The notes beneath the pieces were generated by a model. That model did not search any database, had not been told where the DNA came from, and worked only from the letters and a program-made list of their open reading frames with translations. A stretch of DNA of 64,000 bases from Bacteroidia bacterium. Lineage in GTDB: Bacteria > Bacteroidota > Bacteroidia > UKL13-3. The position numbers and the translations under genes were made by a program. The stretch covers positions 62,001-126,000 of the forward strand of contig JAKLJI010000006.1 of assembly GCA_023151275.1 (NCBI GenBank), given 5' to 3'. Positions 11,665-21,413 of the stretch are shown here, in pieces (within the stretch, counting starts at the first letter, position 1; the number at the start of each line of letters is the position of its first letter).

Positions 11665-12714
11665 ATGAATAGAAGAAATTGGATTGTTACATTGGTTGTA
11701 CTTGTGGTGTTTGGCTTGCTGGCCATACCCAAATTAATGCCGGATGCAAAGTCCGGAATGAACAAAAAAGGACCGGGAGGTCCCGTGCTGGTTGGTACAG
11801 TGAAAGTAGGAACTGGTAGCTTATCTACTACGTTGACTGCTGCCGGAACCTTGCGTGCTGAAGAAGAGGTTGAACTGCGAACAGAAGTTCCGGGGCGCGT
11901 ATTGTCTATCCACTTCAATGAAGGACAGCAGGTCGCTAAGGGAAGCTTATTGCTTAAGCTAAATGATGCTGAGTTAAAAGCGCAATTGAAAAAGGTTAAT
12001 GCAAACTTGCGTTTGAAAGAACAGACTGAGAGACGCAACAAATCACTCTTGGAAAAAGGGGGAATTTCTCAGGAAGCTTATGACTTATCGCGCACCGAGT
12101 TGGATGCCACTATTGCTGATAAGGAATTGCTTGAAGAGCAGATTCGAAAAACTGAAGTTAGAGCTCCTTTCACCGGTAAAATAGGCTTGAGGAATATTTC
12201 TGTAGGCAGCAATTTACCCGCTCAGGCGCTAATTGCAAGCTTGCAACAAACCCATCAATTGAAACTGGATTTTCAGGTTCCTGAACGCTACGTTGCTTTG
12301 GTTAAGCCTGGACTCGAAATTGGATTTACGGTGGATGGAAGTCGTTCTGCGTACAAAGCATCTATACTTGCCATTGAGCCTAGAATTGATGCCAATACCC
12401 GCAATCTATTGGTTAGGGCAAGAGTAAGCAATTTGTCTCAGGAGTTGTTTCCGGGTTCATTTGCTCGGGTAAATTTGGCCTTAAACCAAGATAACAAAGC
12501 TATTTTAATTCCCACTCAAGCTGTTGTTCCTGTACTAAAGGGCCAAAAGGTATTTGTTGTAAGTGGCGATTCGGTTGTAGAACGCAGAATTGAGCTTGGC
12601 CAGCGAAGAGACAGTGTGGTTCAGGTATTGTCGGGACTTGAAAAAGGAGAGGAGATTGTTGTTAAAGGAGTAATTCAGCTAAGGGCTGGAAGTAAAATCA
12701 AAACCGCCTTATGA
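11665..12714 (+). CDS. RND efflux periplasmic adaptor (membrane fusion protein)
   Basis: The protein has 349 residues. An N-terminal membrane anchor or uncleaved signal (WIVTLVVLVVFGLLAIPKL) is followed by the HlyD/AcrA architecture: lipoyl half-motif EVELRTEVPGRVLSIHFNEGQQVAKGS, a short coiled-coil hairpin, the second lipoyl half (RAPFTGKIGLRNISVGS), then the beta-barrel and membrane-proximal domains. It links the inner-membrane transporter to the TolC channel. Its stop overlaps the permease start by four bases (ATGA), which indicates translational coupling. Confidence 0.93.
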   Translation: MNRRNWIVTLVVLVVFGLLAIPKLMPDAKSGMNKKGPGGPVLVGTVKVGTGSLSTTLTAAGTLRAEEEVELRTEVPGRVLSIHFNEGQQVAKGSLLLKLNDAELKAQLKKVNANLRLKEQTERRNKSLLEKGGISQEAYDLSRTELDATIADKELLEEQIRKTEVRAPFTGKIGLRNISVGSNLPAQALIASLQQTHQLKLDFQVPERYVALVKPGLEIGFTVDGSRSAYKASILAIEPRIDANTRNLLVRARVSNLSQELFPGSFARVNLALNQDNKAILIPTQAVVPVLKGQKVFVVSGDSVVERRIELGQRRDSVVQVLSGLEKGEEIVVKGVIQLRAGSKIKTAL

Positions 12715-15700
12715 GTTTAAGCAGTTTAAGTGTAAACCGTCCGGTACTAGCCATTGTACTTTCCATTTTAATTGTACTCTTTGGTATCATTGGATTTGGC
12801 TTTTTGGGGGTTCGCGAATACCCTTCCATTGATCCACCTGTAATTACTGTTCGCACCTCCTACACCGGCGCTAATGCTGAGATTATTGAATCTCAGATTA
12901 CTGAGCCTCTTGAAAAAGCAATCAACGGAATTGCCGGTATTCGTTCCATTTCATCGGCAAGTAACCTGGGAAATTCAAGCATTACGGTTGAGTTCAACCT
13001 GGATGCCGATTTGGAAAGCGCGGCTAATGATGTGCGCGATAAAGTATCTCAAGCGGTCCGCGCATTGCCTCAGGATATTGATGGTCCTCCGGTTGTAAGC
13101 AAGGCAGATGCAAATTCCGATGCAATCATTTCCATGACTGTTCAGAGTGATAGCAAGAACATTCTTCAGATAAGTGATTATGCGGAGAATGTATTGGTAG
13201 AAAAGCTTCAAACCATTCCCGGAGTTAGTACCATTCAAATTTGGGGTCAGAAGCGCTATGCCATGCGTTTATGGCTTGATCCGGTTAAAATGGCTGCCTA
13301 TGGTATAAGTGCTCAGGATATTCGCCAGGCACTTGATCGTGAAAATGTAGAATTGCCCGGAGGAAAAATCGAAGGAAATGCAACGGAACTCACCGTCAAA
13401 ACCTTTGGCCGGTTCAGCTCAGAAAATGAGTTCAATGATTTGATTGTTTATTCAGATGGAACCAAACAAGTTCGGTTTGGCGATATAGGTAGAGCCGTTT
13501 TGGGCGCGGAAAACGAGGAAACCATATTAAAGGAATCAGGCAAGCCCATGATTGGCCTGGCCATTGTGCCTCAGCCCGGGGCCAATTACATTGATATTGC
13601 AGAAGAGTTTTACAAACGCTTTGAGCAGATAAAAAAAGAAGTTCCTGAAGCATTCACGCTAGATGTGGCAATTGACAATACCGGATTTATCAGGACTTCA
13701 ATTACCGAGGTTGAAGAAACCTTGTTGATTGCATTCTCCTTGGTTGTATTGATTATCTTTTTATTCTTTAGGGATTGGCTAATTGCATTTAGACCGCTTA
13801 TTGATATTCCAGTTTCACTAACCGGTGCATTTTTTATCATGTACCTGGCCGGATTTTCAATCAATATTCTTACGCTATTGGCCATTGTTTTGGCTACAGG
13901 TTTAGTGGTTGATGATGGAATTGTAGTTACCGAAAACATCTTTAAAAAGATGGAAGAGGGCGAAACTCCAAGAGAGGCTGCAATTAAGGGAACCAACGAA
14001 ATCTTCTTTGCAGTAATTTCAACCTCAATCACATTGGCAGTGGTGTTTCTTCCGGTTATTTTCCTTCAGGGATTTGTGGGTAGATTGTTCCGGGAGTTTG
14101 GTGTCGTCGTCGCGGGTGCGGTGCTCATTTCCGCATTTGTGTCCCTAACCTTAACGCCCATGTTGAACGTGTACTTTACACGGAAAGACTTTAGGTACCG
14201 CAGCAAGTTTTACCATGCAACAGAGCCCTTATTTCAATGGTTGAATGATGCTTATCGGAATTCGCTGGAGGCTTTTATGCGCAGACGTTGGTGGGCTGTT
14301 GTTATCCTCGTATTCTCTTTTGGCTTGATATTCCTGATTGGAAAAACCATTCAACAGGAGCTTGCTCCATTGGATGATAGAAGTGTGATGCGGATTGTTT
14401 CCAATGCACCTGAAGGTGCTTCGTATGAATTCATGGAGTATTTCCAGGATCAGATTGCGCAAATGGTTATGGACTCGGTTCCCGAGAAACGGAAATTACT
14501 TTCGGTAACAGCTCCGGGTTTTATTGGAAGTGGAGCCGTAAATACTGGTTTTACGCGAATTTTGCTCAATCAGCCCGACGAAAGAAAACGAAGTCAGCAA
14601 CAAATTGCAGACGCCATTAACAAACACTTGAAAGCTTTTCCGGATGCACGAACCTTTGTCATCCAAGACCAAACCATCAACGGTTCAGGTGGCTCAAGAG
14701 CGGGATTGCCGGTTCAGTTTATTCTTCAGAATCAAGACTTCAAAAAAATTCAGGAATACCTTCCCAAGTTCATGGAAGAGGTTAGCAAGAATCCAACCTT
14801 TCAAATGACGGATGTAAACCTGAAATTCAATAAGCCCGAGTTAATTGTTACTATCGACAGAGAGAAGGCCAGAAGCCTGGGAGTATCTGTTCAGGCTATT
14901 GCACAAAGTTTGCAGCTTGCCTTTAGTGGGTTGAGGTATGGTTATTTTACCATGAAGGGAAAGCAATACCAGGTTGTGGGGCAATTTGAGCGCCAGTATC
15001 GGGATAAGCCTTATGATTTGCAGGGTATGTATGTGAAGAATGATAAGGGCCAGTTGATACAGCTGGATAATTTGGTTCAGGTAAGTGAGCAAAGTTCTCC
15101 GCCACAGTTGTACCATTACAACCGCTACAAAGCAGCAACTGTAACAGCCGGATTAGCTCCGGGTAAAACAATTGGCGACGGTATTGCTGAGATGAAGAAG
15201 ATTGCAAGTCGCATATTGGACGATTCATTTACTACAGATTTAGCGGGTCCATCGCGCGATTTTGCTGAAAGCTCTTCCAATACCAGTTTTGCCTTATTGC
15301 TTGCACTTGTGCTGGTTTATTTGGTGTTGGCCGCTCAATTTGAAAGCTTCAGAGATCCTTTAATTATCATGTTAACGGTACCTATGGCTATCGGTGGTGC
15401 CTTGCTTTCGCTCTGGTACTTCAATCAGACCTTAAATATTTTTGGGCAGATTGGGATCATTGTATTGATTGGTTTGGTAACCAAAAATGGAATTTTAATT
15501 GTTGAATTTGCCAATCAGCAAAAAGAAAAAGGCTTGAAGAAAATGGATGCTGTTGTAACCGCTTCAGTAATGCGTTTAAGGCCTATCCTAATGACCAGTT
15601 TAGCTACTATTTTAGGAGCATTGCCTATTGCGCTTGCACTTGGTGCAAGTAGTAAAAGCCGCATGTCGATGGGTATTGTAATTGTTGGTGGATTGCTGTT

Positions 15701-15800
15701 TTCGGGAATTCTTACCCTATATGTGATTCCTGCTATTTACTCCATTTGGTCGAAAGAAACACACACTCAAAAAGAAGAAAATGAATCAGAAGCTAATTAA
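12711..15800 (+). CDS. RND multidrug efflux transporter, AcrB/MexB type
   Basis: The protein has 1029 residues, the usual size of hydrophobe/amphiphile efflux (HAE1) pumps. It has the N-terminal helix with FGFLGVREYPSIDPP, two large periplasmic loops, and the transmembrane proton relay GLVVDDGIVVTENIFKKMEEG with the paired aspartates of TM4. The repeat half has VTKNGILIVEFANQ. It is a proton-driven exporter of drugs, bile salts or similar compounds; the substrate cannot be read from the sequence. The following TolC gene starts inside its last 20 bases. Confidence 0.95.
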   Translation: MSLSSLSVNRPVLAIVLSILIVLFGIIGFGFLGVREYPSIDPPVITVRTSYTGANAEIIESQITEPLEKAINGIAGIRSISSASNLGNSSITVEFNLDADLESAANDVRDKVSQAVRALPQDIDGPPVVSKADANSDAIISMTVQSDSKNILQISDYAENVLVEKLQTIPGVSTIQIWGQKRYAMRLWLDPVKMAAYGISAQDIRQALDRENVELPGGKIEGNATELTVKTFGRFSSENEFNDLIVYSDGTKQVRFGDIGRAVLGAENEETILKESGKPMIGLAIVPQPGANYIDIAEEFYKRFEQIKKEVPEAFTLDVAIDNTGFIRTSITEVEETLLIAFSLVVLIIFLFFRDWLIAFRPLIDIPVSLTGAFFIMYLAGFSINILTLLAIVLATGLVVDDGIVVTENIFKKMEEGETPREAAIKGTNEIFFAVISTSITLAVVFLPVIFLQGFVGRLFREFGVVVAGAVLISAFVSLTLTPMLNVYFTRKDFRYRSKFYHATEPLFQWLNDAYRNSLEAFMRRRWWAVVILVFSFGLIFLIGKTIQQELAPLDDRSVMRIVSNAPEGASYEFMEYFQDQIAQMVMDSVPEKRKLLSVTAPGFIGSGAVNTGFTRILLNQPDERKRSQQQIADAINKHLKAFPDARTFVIQDQTINGSGGSRAGLPVQFILQNQDFKKIQEYLPKFMEEVSKNPTFQMTDVNLKFNKPELIVTIDREKARSLGVSVQAIAQSLQLAFSGLRYGYFTMKGKQYQVVGQFERQYRDKPYDLQGMYVKNDKGQLIQLDNLVQVSEQSSPPQLYHYNRYKAATVTAGLAPGKTIGDGIAEMKKIASRILDDSFTTDLAGPSRDFAESSSNTSFALLLALVLVYLVLAAQFESFRDPLIIMLTVPMAIGGALLSLWYFNQTLNIFGQIGIIVLIGLVTKNGILIVEFANQQKEKGLKKMDAVVTASVMRLRPILMTSLATILGALPIALALGASSKSRMSMGIVIVGGLLFSGILTLYVIPAIYSIWSKETHTQKEENESEAN

Positions 15801-17091
15801 CTTCATACTGTTATTTCTGCCTATTGTTCCCTTTCAAGCTCACGCGCAACAGATGCTTGGAGCTGAAGAGACTTGGATAATTGCACTTGAAAACAATTTC
15901 TCCATACAGATTGCCAAGAACGATGAACAAGTAGGTCGCAATAACAACAGCCTGGGCAATGCCGGGATGTTACCAACAGTAAATGGAGTACTCAATCAGG
16001 ACAATACCGTTACCAATACCAAGCAAACTTTCTTAAATGGAAGTTCAAACGACCGCAACGGTGCAAAAGCGGACCAGCTGAATGCTGCCGTGGAATTGGG
16101 TTGGACCATTTTTGATGGCTTTAAAATGTTTGCCACCAAAGGTCGCTTTGAACAATTGCAACAGCAAGGCGAATTGCGTGTAAGGTTGCAAATGGAGCAA
16201 GTATTTGTACGCTTGATGAAGGGTTATTTTGATTTGGTTTTGGCAACCCGCTTATTGAAATTGGAAGAAGAGACCGATCAGCTATCTACCCTTCGTTTGA
16301 AATTGGCTGAAGACCGTTTTCAAGCAGGGAAAGCTTCTAAGGCAGAATTGTTGAATGCCAGGGTTGATAGAGATACTGATAAGGCCCGGCTCTTGCGTCA
16401 AAAGAACCAGCTTGAGCTTTTGAAGACCCAGTTGAATCAACTCATGGGAAGGGATTTGAAGCTGGACTTTCAGGTTGATACCGTAATTCAATTCAGGAAA
16501 GAATTGGCGCTTGCCGATTTGGAGCAGCACACATTAAGTGGAAATACCGGTTTGCGGATGTTGAAATCAGCAGAAGCCGTAAATTATTACCAATTGAAAG
16601 AAATACAAGCTGAGCGCATGCCAAGTATTACGGTAAAAGGTGGTTACAACTACAGCAGAAGCAATTCGGAAGCAGGTTTTCTTCAGCGTGCAAGCAATTT
16701 AGGCTACCATTATGGTGCAGGAGTGAATCTGAATATTTTCAATGGAAACAGTGTTGGACGAAGAATTGAAAATGCACGGCTGGGCATTAAAAATGCGGAG
16801 CTGATTTACAAGGATAGTAGCAGTAAAGTATTGCAAGCCTTGTATCAACAGTTCAGGGTGTATAAAACCTCCATTGAATTAATTGAATTGGAGAAAAACC
16901 GAGTTGAAACTGCGCGATTGAATGTAGAGATTGCTGTTGAACAATACAAGCAAGGTGTTATTAGTCCGCTAGAATTTCGTCAGTCCCAACAAAACCTTTT
17001 GCAAGCAGAGAACAGTTTGCTTCAATCTTTGTATGAAGGTTTGATGAGTGAGTTGGAATTGAAAAGAATAAGCGGTGGCTTATTCAACTAA
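15781..17091 (+). CDS. TolC family outer membrane efflux channel
   Basis: The protein has 436 residues with a signal peptide (INFILLFLPIVPFQAHAQ). The two homologous halves typical of TolC are visible, each with long amphipathic helices such as EDRFQAGKASKAELLNARVDRD and VEQYKQGVISPLEFRQSQQN. It forms the outer membrane exit duct of the pump. The start overlaps the permease by 20 bases, so the three pump genes are co-translated. No clear terminator is visible in the 150 bases downstream. Confidence 0.93.
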   Translation: MNQKLINFILLFLPIVPFQAHAQQMLGAEETWIIALENNFSIQIAKNDEQVGRNNNSLGNAGMLPTVNGVLNQDNTVTNTKQTFLNGSSNDRNGAKADQLNAAVELGWTIFDGFKMFATKGRFEQLQQQGELRVRLQMEQVFVRLMKGYFDLVLATRLLKLEEETDQLSTLRLKLAEDRFQAGKASKAELLNARVDRDTDKARLLRQKNQLELLKTQLNQLMGRDLKLDFQVDTVIQFRKELALADLEQHTLSGNTGLRMLKSAEAVNYYQLKEIQAERMPSITVKGGYNYSRSNSEAGFLQRASNLGYHYGAGVNLNIFNGNSVGRRIENARLGIKNAELIYKDSSSKVLQALYQQFRVYKTSIELIELEKNRVETARLNVEIAVEQYKQGVISPLEFRQSQQNLLQAENSLLQSLYEGLMSELELKRISGGLFN

Positions 17092-18308: not shown

Positions 18309-19664
18309 TTAATGCGAAATATTCACTTTTCTAACCAGGGTACTTTCCTTGCTCTTCAGTACAAGCAGATAAGTTCCTTCATACACCAAGCGCGTATCTA
18401 AAAAGCTTAATGTACTTCCGGCTGCAATAGCTCCACTTTGCACGAGTTTGCCATCTAAGGAATACAAATTCAATTCATAGGTTTGGTTGGCAGCCTCTGG
18501 TAACTGGATTGCTACAAATTCAGATGCAGGATTTGGAAATATGCCCAGTGAACTTTCGTTGAACGTGTTGAATCCTGTGGTTTGCGGAATGTACTGTGTT
18601 ACGGCTTCGTTTATGCTGTTCACCTTGGCATTGCTATAAACGCCGTAAAAAGTTGGTCCAACTACATAAGGATAGGCCGAGTTCCAGTTTTCGTCCACAG
18701 TTGCGAAATAACAATAGATGCCTTCTGGGTATTCGGGTGTTTTGCAAAAGCGCCCATTGTGTTCATCCAAGTAATCTTCCTGGCCACTTTGGGGAGCTGT
18801 ATAGCCATAATCTTCCCGGAAATAACCCAGGGGATAGGTGCTGTTTACATCCGGACCTGCACTTACACTTTGCCCGGTATATAAAGTAGTTCTTGTACTT
18901 ATGTTTCGTAAGGTCCAGGAGGATTTCATACGTACAATGCCCCCGGTTCCATCTGCATTTTTGTAGGCGTATGGACCATAAATCGGAAAGCCATCGTAGG
19001 CAAAACCAATTAATGGGGAATGTTTCGTTGAATCAATTAGGTATAGTCCATCGGCATCGTACAAATTGCAAATGGTTGATACCACGTTTTTGTCGAGTTT
19101 AAATGCACTGGGGTTTTGATGATGGTGGTAATTTCCATTTGCCGGATGTCCTTTCGAACAATCAAATCCTGCTCGTTCAGCAACTACCGCATCCCGATTC
19201 CATACGCCGTCTCCAGTCCCACCTAATGGACCTCCTGCCAGCTTGTTAGTCGATGTTTTCCAGGATACGCCATCGCGGTAATCAAACAAAGCCACACCAT
19301 TGATAAAGATACCGATATTTCCCAAGGTTGTTGAACTTGGGTTTCCTGTGTTTTTTACAGGATTTAAAGGAAACCGGAAGATTGCATTTTGTGCAGTGGT
19401 AATAGAAGGATTATTGTCGAGAAATGGACCGGTGGGATAGGCCGGAACTCCTTTTGTTCTTACATAAACATTGGTTGATGAATAAAGTACCGTTTGCACA
19501 TTTACAGAATCTGCATCCTGAATAAGGGTTGAACTCCCTTTTACATAGTGCTTTCCTTTGGCACCGTCTTGGTTAATTATCCATGACCGTATTGCCGGAT
19601 TGTTCTGTGCCACTCCAGATTGGCTTATCAGGGCTACTAAGCTGAGGAAGACAAATTTTTTCAT
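18309..19664 (-). CDS. YHYH domain protein with a type IX secretion sorting domain
   Basis: The protein has 451 residues. The ATG at 19664 gives a clean signal peptide (KFVFLSLVALISQSGVAQ). The central region has the YHYH signature as NYHHHQNPSAFKLD followed by GFAYDGFPIYGPYAY. The C-terminal 80 residues (GIFPNPASEFVAIQLPE to LVRKVNISH) are a T9SS type A sorting domain, so the protein is exported and probably attached to the cell surface. YHYH proteins are histidine-rich and often lie near copper-related genes. The gene starts 31 bases after mbnH and is the third gene of that operon. Confidence 0.9.
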   Translation of the reverse strand: MKKFVFLSLVALISQSGVAQNNPAIRSWIINQDGAKGKHYVKGSSTLIQDADSVNVQTVLYSSTNVYVRTKGVPAYPTGPFLDNNPSITTAQNAIFRFPLNPVKNTGNPSSTTLGNIGIFINGVALFDYRDGVSWKTSTNKLAGGPLGGTGDGVWNRDAVVAERAGFDCSKGHPANGNYHHHQNPSAFKLDKNVVSTICNLYDADGLYLIDSTKHSPLIGFAYDGFPIYGPYAYKNADGTGGIVRMKSSWTLRNISTRTTLYTGQSVSAGPDVNSTYPLGYFREDYGYTAPQSGQEDYLDEHNGRFCKTPEYPEGIYCYFATVDENWNSAYPYVVGPTFYGVYSNAKVNSINEAVTQYIPQTTGFNTFNESSLGIFPNPASEFVAIQLPEAANQTYELNLYSLDGKLVQSGAIAAGSTLSFLDTRLVYEGTYLLVLKSKESTLVRKVNISH

Positions 19665-19695
19665 ACCTTGGTTTTTGTCAAGCCAAGTTAAGGGA

Positions 19696-20727
19696 TTACT
19701 CCATGGGTTGGGAGAAAAAAAACTCCTTGGGAAACTGGTTTTTAGTAGCATACAAAAAAGTTCTATCTCCCAGTGCCAGCAAAAAGGCCATCAAATCCAC
19801 TTTTTCTTCCGGACTAAATTTCTGCACGCTTACCTTAGTTCCATCTGCTTTTTGGAGTGTGATTCCGGAATAATGATCCAGTACCTGATACAGTTTTTGC
19901 ATCCTTCCATCGTGCATGTAGGGATAGGTGAATTCCAGGTTGCGGAGGCTGGGAACTTTAAAGCGCAATGAATCTTGTGGGTCTCCGCTGATGGCAGCTC
20001 TGCCTAGATCGCGGTATTTTTCGAGCATACCTATTCCATTGTTTTCAAAGTTGAAAGAGGTAAATAAGGGTTCTGTATGGCAGGTATTGCAATTGTTTTT
20101 GAAGAGGGTATAGCCGTTTTGTTCTTGCAAGTTGAAGCTGTCCTTTTTTAGCATAACCCGGTCGTATTTACTTTCGGCACTAACCAAGGTAACCAGGAAG
20201 GACGAAATGGATTTTAGCATGCGTTCGGAGTTAATTAAAGTATCGCCATACACCTTATTGAACAATGAACGGTAGCGCCAGGAATGCTTGATTTTTTTCA
20301 ATACATGTTCGGTGCTTTCTCCCATTTCATCGGGATGGTTGATGGGTGCCAGCGCCTGCACATCGAGGTTGTTTATGGCACCATCCCACATGTAATACGG
20401 TTGCCAGGCCAGGTTGAACAGGGCGGGGGAGTTTCTTTTTCCAAAGCGGTCCTGGATGCCGTGGCTTACCTCGTGGTCGTTGTGGGTGAAGGCAGAGAAG
20501 GGCGAATGGCAGGATGCGCAGCTAGTAGTGAAATCAATGGAAAGTGCTTCGTCATAAAACAAGGCTCTACCCAATAATACCTGCAAAGAGTCTACTCGCT
20601 TGCCTTTGAATGCATATTTTGGTTCAGGGAAATGCGCAGGTTTTTTGAACAGGGAATCCTGAAGCTGACGCATACCCATAATGGATGAAAGGCATGCAAG
20701 AAGCAGTAGAAATTTCAGCTTTTTCAT
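19696..20727 (-). CDS. mbnH: MbnH-like diheme cytochrome c peroxidase (MauG family)
   Basis: The protein has 343 residues with a signal peptide. Two c-type heme motifs are present, CASCH (residues 70-74) and CNTCH (213-217), as in bacterial cytochrome c peroxidases and MauG. RALFYDEALSIDFTTSCASCH and PYMHDGRMQKL are family hallmarks. Because the gene overlaps an MbnP gene by four bases (ATGA), I assign it to the MbnH branch, in which the diheme enzyme oxidises a tryptophan of MbnP to kynurenine and so creates a copper site. Plain cytochrome c peroxidase is the alternative. It acts in the periplasm. Confidence 0.88.
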   Translation of the reverse strand: MKKLKFLLLLACLSSIMGMRQLQDSLFKKPAHFPEPKYAFKGKRVDSLQVLLGRALFYDEALSIDFTTSCASCHSPFSAFTHNDHEVSHGIQDRFGKRNSPALFNLAWQPYYMWDGAINNLDVQALAPINHPDEMGESTEHVLKKIKHSWRYRSLFNKVYGDTLINSERMLKSISSFLVTLVSAESKYDRVMLKKDSFNLQEQNGYTLFKNNCNTCHTEPLFTSFNFENNGIGMLEKYRDLGRAAISGDPQDSLRFKVPSLRNLEFTYPYMHDGRMQKLYQVLDHYSGITLQKADGTKVSVQKFSPEEKVDLMAFLLALGDRTFLYATKNQFPKEFFFSQPME

Positions 20728-21413
20728 GGTTGAATAACACGAAATGCCCTGGCGAATGTTTTGGAAAGTTGAGCAGCTTCGCGGCGTGGCGACATGATTT
20801 TCCAAACTTTGATTTGTTCTGCTTCTTTGAACCAGTCGAGTAAGTTTATTTCAATTGCAAGTTGGTTTTGTGCATTTACCTTAAAGCTCAGCGTTTGATA
20901 ACAGTTGAACGGTCCTGCATAAGCACCCAAATGGAAAAAAAATTCGTTGTCGGACAAAGTTGATGCGCTGTGTTGGCCTTCGATTCGGAGGTTAATGTAC
21001 CCGCTTTGCCAGGTCCAGTACATGCCATGTATCGGGTCGAGGTCATTGCTTTTTGGGCCATCTACACTCGTTAAACTATCAATACCAATACCCAATTTGA
21101 TTTCATCAAATTCAGGAAGTCTTGGTTTGCTAAGCATTAACTTGGATTGCTCTGCTTGAAATGGGTTGATTAGATGTCCTTCCAGGGAATCTGTGAGTAC
21201 GATTTTGCCTTGGTGTAGCAATTGTACATTGGAAATGTAAAAGCGGAAATCGCTTATGCGCAAGCTGTCATGAGCTCCGGTTTTAATCCATTGGTTTCTT
21301 TGGATTTTTGTACCCGGCTTCCCGGAACTTGCAGTAAAAGCAATGCTTAAACTATCGGATGCTTTTGTCTGAAGCAAGGTGAATGCAAACAGAAATACAA
21401 AGAGAATGCGCAT
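20724..21413 (-). CDS. mbnP: MbnP family copper-binding protein
   Basis: The protein has 229 residues from the ATG at 21413, which gives a signal peptide (ILFVFLFAFTLLQTKA). The family signature DLDPIHGMYWTWQSGYINL (residues 125-142) contains Trp133 and Trp135, and the C-terminal KIMSPRREAAQLSKTFARAF is also characteristic. In the characterised Methylosinus system MbnP binds copper through a tryptophan-derived kynurenine made by MbnH. It heads the mbnP-mbnH-YHYH operon. I see no TAnnTTTG element in the upstream region. Confidence 0.88.
   Translation of the reverse strand: MRILFVFLFAFTLLQTKASDSLSIAFTASSGKPGTKIQRNQWIKTGAHDSLRISDFRFYISNVQLLHQGKIVLTDSLEGHLINPFQAEQSKLMLSKPRLPEFDEIKLGIGIDSLTSVDGPKSNDLDPIHGMYWTWQSGYINLRIEGQHSASTLSDNEFFFHLGAYAGPFNCYQTLSFKVNAQNQLAIEINLLDWFKEAEQIKVWKIMSPRREAAQLSKTFARAFRVIQP

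Follow-up and report, generated by a model that had tools for sequence, protein, structure and literature searches.

A Conserved mbnP-mbnH-YHYH Gene Module in a Bacteroidia Bacterium as a Candidate Extracytoplasmic Metal Protein System

This study identified mbnP, mbnH and a YHYH-family gene as a conserved module in a Bacteroidia bacterium, since the trio recurs across Bacteroidota on the same strand and in two gene orders. On balance, we favor the reading that the genes are organized as a single operon whose products make up an extracytoplasmic metal protein system, most likely for copper, in which MbnH, MbnP and the YHYH protein play the roles proposed below. The window, that is, the whole stretch of DNA analyzed, comprises 64,000 nucleotides of contig JAKLJI010000006.1.

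Anatomy and conservation of the gene trio

All three genes lie on the minus strand of the window. The mbnP gene (20724..21413) encodes an MbnP-family, secreted or periplasmic protein of 229 aa, mbnH (19696..20727) encodes an MbnH-like dihaem enzyme of 343 aa, and the YHYH-family gene (18309..19664) encodes a protein of 451 aa with a signal peptide and a type IX secretion system (T9SS) type A sorting tail. The start and stop codons of mbnP and mbnH overlap by four bases in the sequence ATGA (20724..20727), which is the commonest spacing of this pair in the list compiled from relatives, and the ATG of the YHYH gene at 19664 follows 31 bases downstream of mbnH. The open reading frames therefore agreed with the original prediction in gene content, order, coordinates, strand, overlap and gap. 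Promoter and terminator scans of the locus returned scores below or near chance and carried no information. Downstream of the trio, on the opposite strand, the window contains an RND efflux operon (11665-17091, plus strand) consisting of a membrane fusion protein, an inner membrane pump and an outer membrane channel, in which copper specificity was not evident.

When species genomes were scanned with the YHYH protein as query, 80 loci from its closest relatives were obtained. The order mbnP-mbnH-YHYH was found in 57 of these 80 loci and mbnH-YHYH in nine more, several of them at contig ends, and both mbnP and mbnH preceded YHYH in 54 of the 70 loci with at least 3 kb of upstream sequence. Because this set represents the closest relatives, the search was extended to 247 genomes sampled evenly from the class, of which 90 contained YHYH and 179 contained MbnP. 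In this sample, mbnP was located within 5 kb of 47 of the 88 strong YHYH genes, always on the same strand, compared with a chance expectation of about 0.6 estimated from 182 MbnPs in 80 genomes of approximately 3.5 Mb. On the mbnP-mbnH-YHYH side were 39 of the 47, with mbnP about 1.4 kb upstream of YHYH and room for mbnH between them, and in the other 8 the YHYH gene lay ahead of mbnP. This second order is YHYH-mbnP-mbnH, with a diverged YHYH and, in two of the loci read, one intervening gene. No mbnP was present within 5 kb of the other 41 of the 88 YHYH genes, some of which are at contig ends. The gene order is thus conserved in relatives, a point that the original prediction had put forward for checking.

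Variants of the arrangement were also observed. One locus (L130, contig 7 of genome G163) carries mbnH-YHYH without a detectable adjoining mbnP, possibly owing to loss, and a Kapaibacterium (L101:1638-5448) carries tandem YHYH genes of 815 and 448 aa after mbnP-mbnH; tandem copies are likewise present in L109. A search of plasmids gave no MbnP and three weak YHYH matches.

MbnP, MbnH and their homologs in the genome

The window's MbnP matched the Pfam family PF20243 with 117.7 bits against a cut-off of 27. It scored 46.1 bits against the NCBIfam equivalog TIGR04052 (MbnP_like_WxW), whose cut-off of 140 bits was likewise missed by the other Bacteroidota MbnPs tested. The AlphaFold (AF2) model of the protein had a pLDDT of 91, and a Foldseek search of this model against the PDB returned matches at E<=0.001 only to the six chains of 7l6g, the MbnP of Methylosinus trichosporium (E 2.5e-7 to 9.6e-7, identity 12-14%), with the next PDB match at E 0.037. 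The fold search alone linked the two proteins, as a single-sequence search and two profiles gave no match to 7l6g. Judged by its modeled fold together with the Pfam match, the window's protein is a genuine member of the MbnP family.

The predicted pair of tryptophans in the family motif WxW is present (M131-Y-W133-T-W135), and M131, W133, W135 and H161 were invariant in an alignment of 50 YHYH-linked MbnPs. From this conservation, H161 and M131 are candidate metal ligands, M131 being the best candidate for a methionine ligand. Reportedly, in the work of Manesis et al. from 2021, the first tryptophan of the MbnP WxW is converted to kynurenine, and a histidine and a methionine bind Cu(I). We take W133, H161 and M131 to be the natural, if putative, counterparts of this tryptophan, histidine and methionine of the Methylosinus protein. 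As only the first tryptophan is converted in the MbnP studied, W133 is the expected site, rather than both W133 and W135. A copper role of the window's MbnP is suggested by analogy with its family.

The enzyme encoded by mbnH matched Pfam CCP_MauG (PF03150) with 168.9 bits against a cut-off of 25.6 and contains two CXXCH haem motifs, CASCH at 70 and CNTCH at 213. Its best NCBIfam match was TIGR04039, the hypothetical MbnH equivalog, at 187.3 bits, which is under the cut-off of 362.85. The single-sequence search, in which peroxidases ranked above the MbnH 6e1c, would agree with an ordinary cytochrome c peroxidase acting in H2O2 detoxification beside unrelated neighbors. With a profile of 49 relatives the best PDB match was the MbnH 6e1c (206.6 bits versus 202.9 for a peroxidase), which taken alone suggests a slight preference for MbnH. 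Stronger arguments against the peroxidase came from individual residues. Tyr286, in the column of the sixth haem ligand, aligns with the tyrosine of 6e1c and with the methionine of four solved peroxidases, and Trp108 and Met271 follow 6e1c at positions where these peroxidases have Phe or Met and Phe, respectively; the window's enzyme also has Trp114. The original prediction had named placement with ordinary cytochrome c peroxidases as a result that would speak against it. In a maximum-likelihood tree built without MauG, the peroxidases formed one clade (support 100/99) and the window's enzyme fell outside it, and the sampled YHYH-linked MbnHs formed one clade of their own (100/100). By its residues and its position in the tree, the dihaem enzyme is therefore best regarded as a genuine MbnH family member. 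The identity as an ordinary peroxidase, which also sits poorly with the conserved mbnP overlap, was rejected as largely refuted and very improbable.

The window's genome contains two further MbnP-MbnH pairs, both without YHYH. The second pair (L011:4197-5000 and L011:3113-4189, both on the minus strand of contig C11 of genome G000) has lipoprotein-like starts, and its MbnP retains the WxW and has an aspartate at the position of H161. The third pair lies on the plus strand of contig C22 (L012:7496-8224 and L012:8196-9242); its enzyme is a long branch, and its MbnP-family protein has no WxW (IWPTEMGGGY), which may make it a non-kynurenine variant of MbnP. In addition, an MbnH-like dihaem enzyme without MbnP is encoded on the minus strand of contig C44 (L014:2959-7426), where its neighbors are a TonB-type receptor and a thioredoxin-like protein with a T9SS tail. 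These three other MbnH-like enzymes fall outside the YHYH-linked MbnH clade.

No match to TIGR04159, the methanobactin protein MbnB, was found anywhere in the genome, and the predicted absence of a methanobactin locus is thus borne out at the level of MbnB. A system working without methanobactin, as originally suggested, agrees with this result; as a novelty, the idea has to be given up, as work from 2013 already described MbnP-MbnH pairs as conserved "far beyond" the producers of methanobactin (PMC3621798). Copper-linked operons with MbnPH-like genes beside cruR/bp2923 homologs, outside methanobactin clusters, have also been described (PMC9426467); these have a different regulator, and the passage concerned mentions no YHYH.

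The YHYH protein

The third protein matched PF14240 (YHYH) with 189.4 bits against a cut-off of 25, and its residues 375-449 form a T9SS tail recognized both by Por_Secre_tail PF18962 (39.6 bits, cut-off 27) and by the sorting tail TIGR04183 (39.1 bits, cut-off 23). The assignment as a YHYH protein with a type IX sorting domain thus holds above the Pfam and NCBIfam cut-offs. The genome also encodes the T9SS component SprA (2526 bits), which together with the tail supports the export of the YHYH protein. It had been described as histidine-rich, wrongly, as it contains merely 8 histidines in 451 aa.

The motif of the window's protein reads Y179-H-H-H, that is, YHxH. A cross-family alignment gave a conserved core of H173, Y179-H180-x-H182, H215, D224, D285 and D300, in which H173, H180, H182, D224, D285 and D300 were kept in 24 of 24 divergent members and H215 in 23 of 24. 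A metal site in YHYH is likely from this conservation; the AF2 model of the protein was of low confidence (pLDDT 57). The domain itself is not copper-specific, because mbnP is absent from the 5 kb around 41 of the 88 YHYH genes and because the domain is common in cyanophage records, and the argument for copper in YHYH is drawn from its gene neighborhood alone. Copper handling by YHYH, put forward originally, is speculative; in the literature the domain carries a single prediction, that of a Zn2+ hydrolase (PMC7824862).

The YHYH protein might instead be a surface metal-dependent hydrolase or a glycan-binding protein that is merely co-regulated, with the copper part confined to MbnP-MbnH, an explanation we consider unlikely. 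For the phage forms, three histidines and an aspartate were proposed by Iyer et al. to make up a Zn2+ site, and a hydrolase activity was predicted (PMC7824862), and the domain has been listed alongside host-recognition domains (PMC7029224), in line with its occurrence in 463 phage records. The phage members belong to the same Pfam family and keep the histidine triad and the aspartate; they are found in tail or baseplate proteins, whereas the window's member is a cellular protein with a T9SS tail encoded beside mbnP-mbnH. The His/Asp core was kept to the same degree whether or not the YHYH genes were accompanied by mbnP-mbnH, and sulfatases adjoin YHYH in some loci, both of which fit a hydrolase or glycan-binding protein. 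Set against these points, the tight same-strand linkage to mbnP-mbnH in two orders and the single clade of YHYH-linked MbnHs argue for a joint function. The idea of YHYH as a second substrate of MbnH found no support, as no tryptophan is conserved only in the mbnH-linked genes: W155 is present in all unlinked genes too, and W28 in 5 of 8.

In the joint function that we favor, the periplasmic dihaem MbnH would use peroxide-derived oxidizing equivalents to convert Trp133 of MbnP into kynurenine, as its family suggests. The kynurenine would create a Cu(I) site with H161 and a methionine, for which M131 is the best candidate. The YHYH protein, presumably delivered to the outside of the cell by the type IX system, would probably bind a metal through its His/Asp cluster. 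It may cooperate from there with the periplasmic MbnP by binding or processing either the metal or a carrier of the metal. We infer kynurenine formation, copper binding, and the binding and role of the YHYH protein in this way, along with a direction of metal flow that may be acquisition, storage or detoxification.

Regulatory genes in relatives and comparison with known systems

In CnrYXH and NccYXH, an ECF sigma factor, a short single-helix membrane protein and a CnrX/Spy-type periplasmic protein are encoded in one operon. This layout was seen in loci of relatives and is absent from the window. A sensor-type gene of approximately 140-180 aa with one N-terminal hydrophobic helix precedes mbnP in 33 of 56 mbnP-mbnH-YHYH loci, and in 28 of the 56 it is accompanied by an ECF sigma factor, clearly identified by Pfam, usually with a small single-helix protein in between, a putative anti-sigma factor so named solely from where it lies and how large it is. 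The same sigma factor-small protein-sensor set also precedes YHYH-mbnP-mbnH (L125, L128 and L129), and the full six-gene form is present in a named species, Fluviicola chungangensis MAH-3 (L109). Six of the 33 sensors matched Metal_resist (PF13801), most members having no Pfam match, and the sensor profile matched Spy (E 0.021) and NccX (E 0.052) weakly but over nearly the full length, the structure matches spanning E 0.005-0.15. A CnrX/Spy-like sensor is therefore likely, at this weak level of similarity. Upstream of the window's mbnP, no ECF sigma, anti-sigma or sensor module was found, and the sensor profile, which matches 31 of 64 family members, had no match in the window's genome or in three congeners.

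Further genes were noted in the loci of relatives. Multicopper oxidases were recognized by motif as 15 genes in 13 of the 80 loci, one of them confirmed by Pfam. In two loci (L096 and L124), a multicopper oxidase of approximately 1200 aa is flanked by a sensor gene ahead of it and YHYH behind it, without mbnP-mbnH, possibly a parallel system. Larger clusters of mbnP, mbnH, multicopper oxidase, sulfatase, YHYH, thioredoxin and redoxin occur in L059, L073 and L074; in L059 and L074 they are followed by another sigma/sensor set together with two genes for metallophosphatases.

The sensors raise the question of metal-stress defense, in which a CnrX/Spy-like sensor would free the ECF sigma factor at high periplasmic metal, and excess copper would be bound or oxidized by MbnP, MbnH and YHYH, joined in some cases by a multicopper oxidase. 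The sigma factor, short membrane protein and sensor ahead of the genes in relatives, the Metal_resist matches, the high ranking of NccX and Spy in the search against structures, and the nearby multicopper oxidases all point this way. The sensor, however, is missing from the window's genome and from three congeners, and CorA and MopE, the characterized copper proteins with kynurenine, are repressed by copper and made under scarcity (PMC3912023, PMC3621798), so we regard defense as rather doubtful. As to the direction of metal flow, the sensor type suggests metal excess, whereas analogy with the copper repression of CorA/MopE suggests scarcity. The original reading as a copper capture or relay system was a guess, and a role in detoxification or sensing is no less plausible than one in acquisition, since the sensor module of relatives resembles metal-excess systems. 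The wider proposal of a three-component kynurenine-copper system of Bacteroidota, in which the periplasmic MbnP matured by MbnH would work with YHYH as a metal-binding surface component, in many members under the control of a dedicated ECF sigma factor and CnrX/Spy-like sensor, is offered tentatively, at less than even confidence.

Among known systems, the MbnP-MbnH pair of Methylosinus trichosporium OB3b (7l6g, 6e1c) shares with the window the MbnP fold, the WxW, and an adjacent dihaem partner with a tyrosine ligand and two CXXCH motifs. The window differs from it in having no methanobactin locus, in the low MbnP identity (12-14%), in scores under the NCBIfam equivalog cut-offs, and in the T9SS-exported YHYH protein of its operon. 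In CorA-CorB and MopE-SACCP of methanotrophs, a surface-exposed kynurenine copper protein is likewise co-transcribed with a dihaem peroxidase-like enzyme (PMC3912023). CorA and MopE, however, hold copper with two histidines and are not markedly similar to MbnP (PMC3621798), and in the window it is a third, unrelated protein that is predicted at the surface. Our literature search, in which subscription journals were thinly covered, returned no paper joining YHYH with MbnP, nor relevantly with copper. The trio looks like a copper-handling system previously undescribed as a unit.

MbnP-MbnH pairs are known to be widespread, and the conserved operon provides a testable setting for their role outside methanotrophs. 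The operon also offers an initial genomic clue to what the YHYH domain does in cells, and if the three-component kynurenine-copper system is true, it would represent the first cellular function for this domain.
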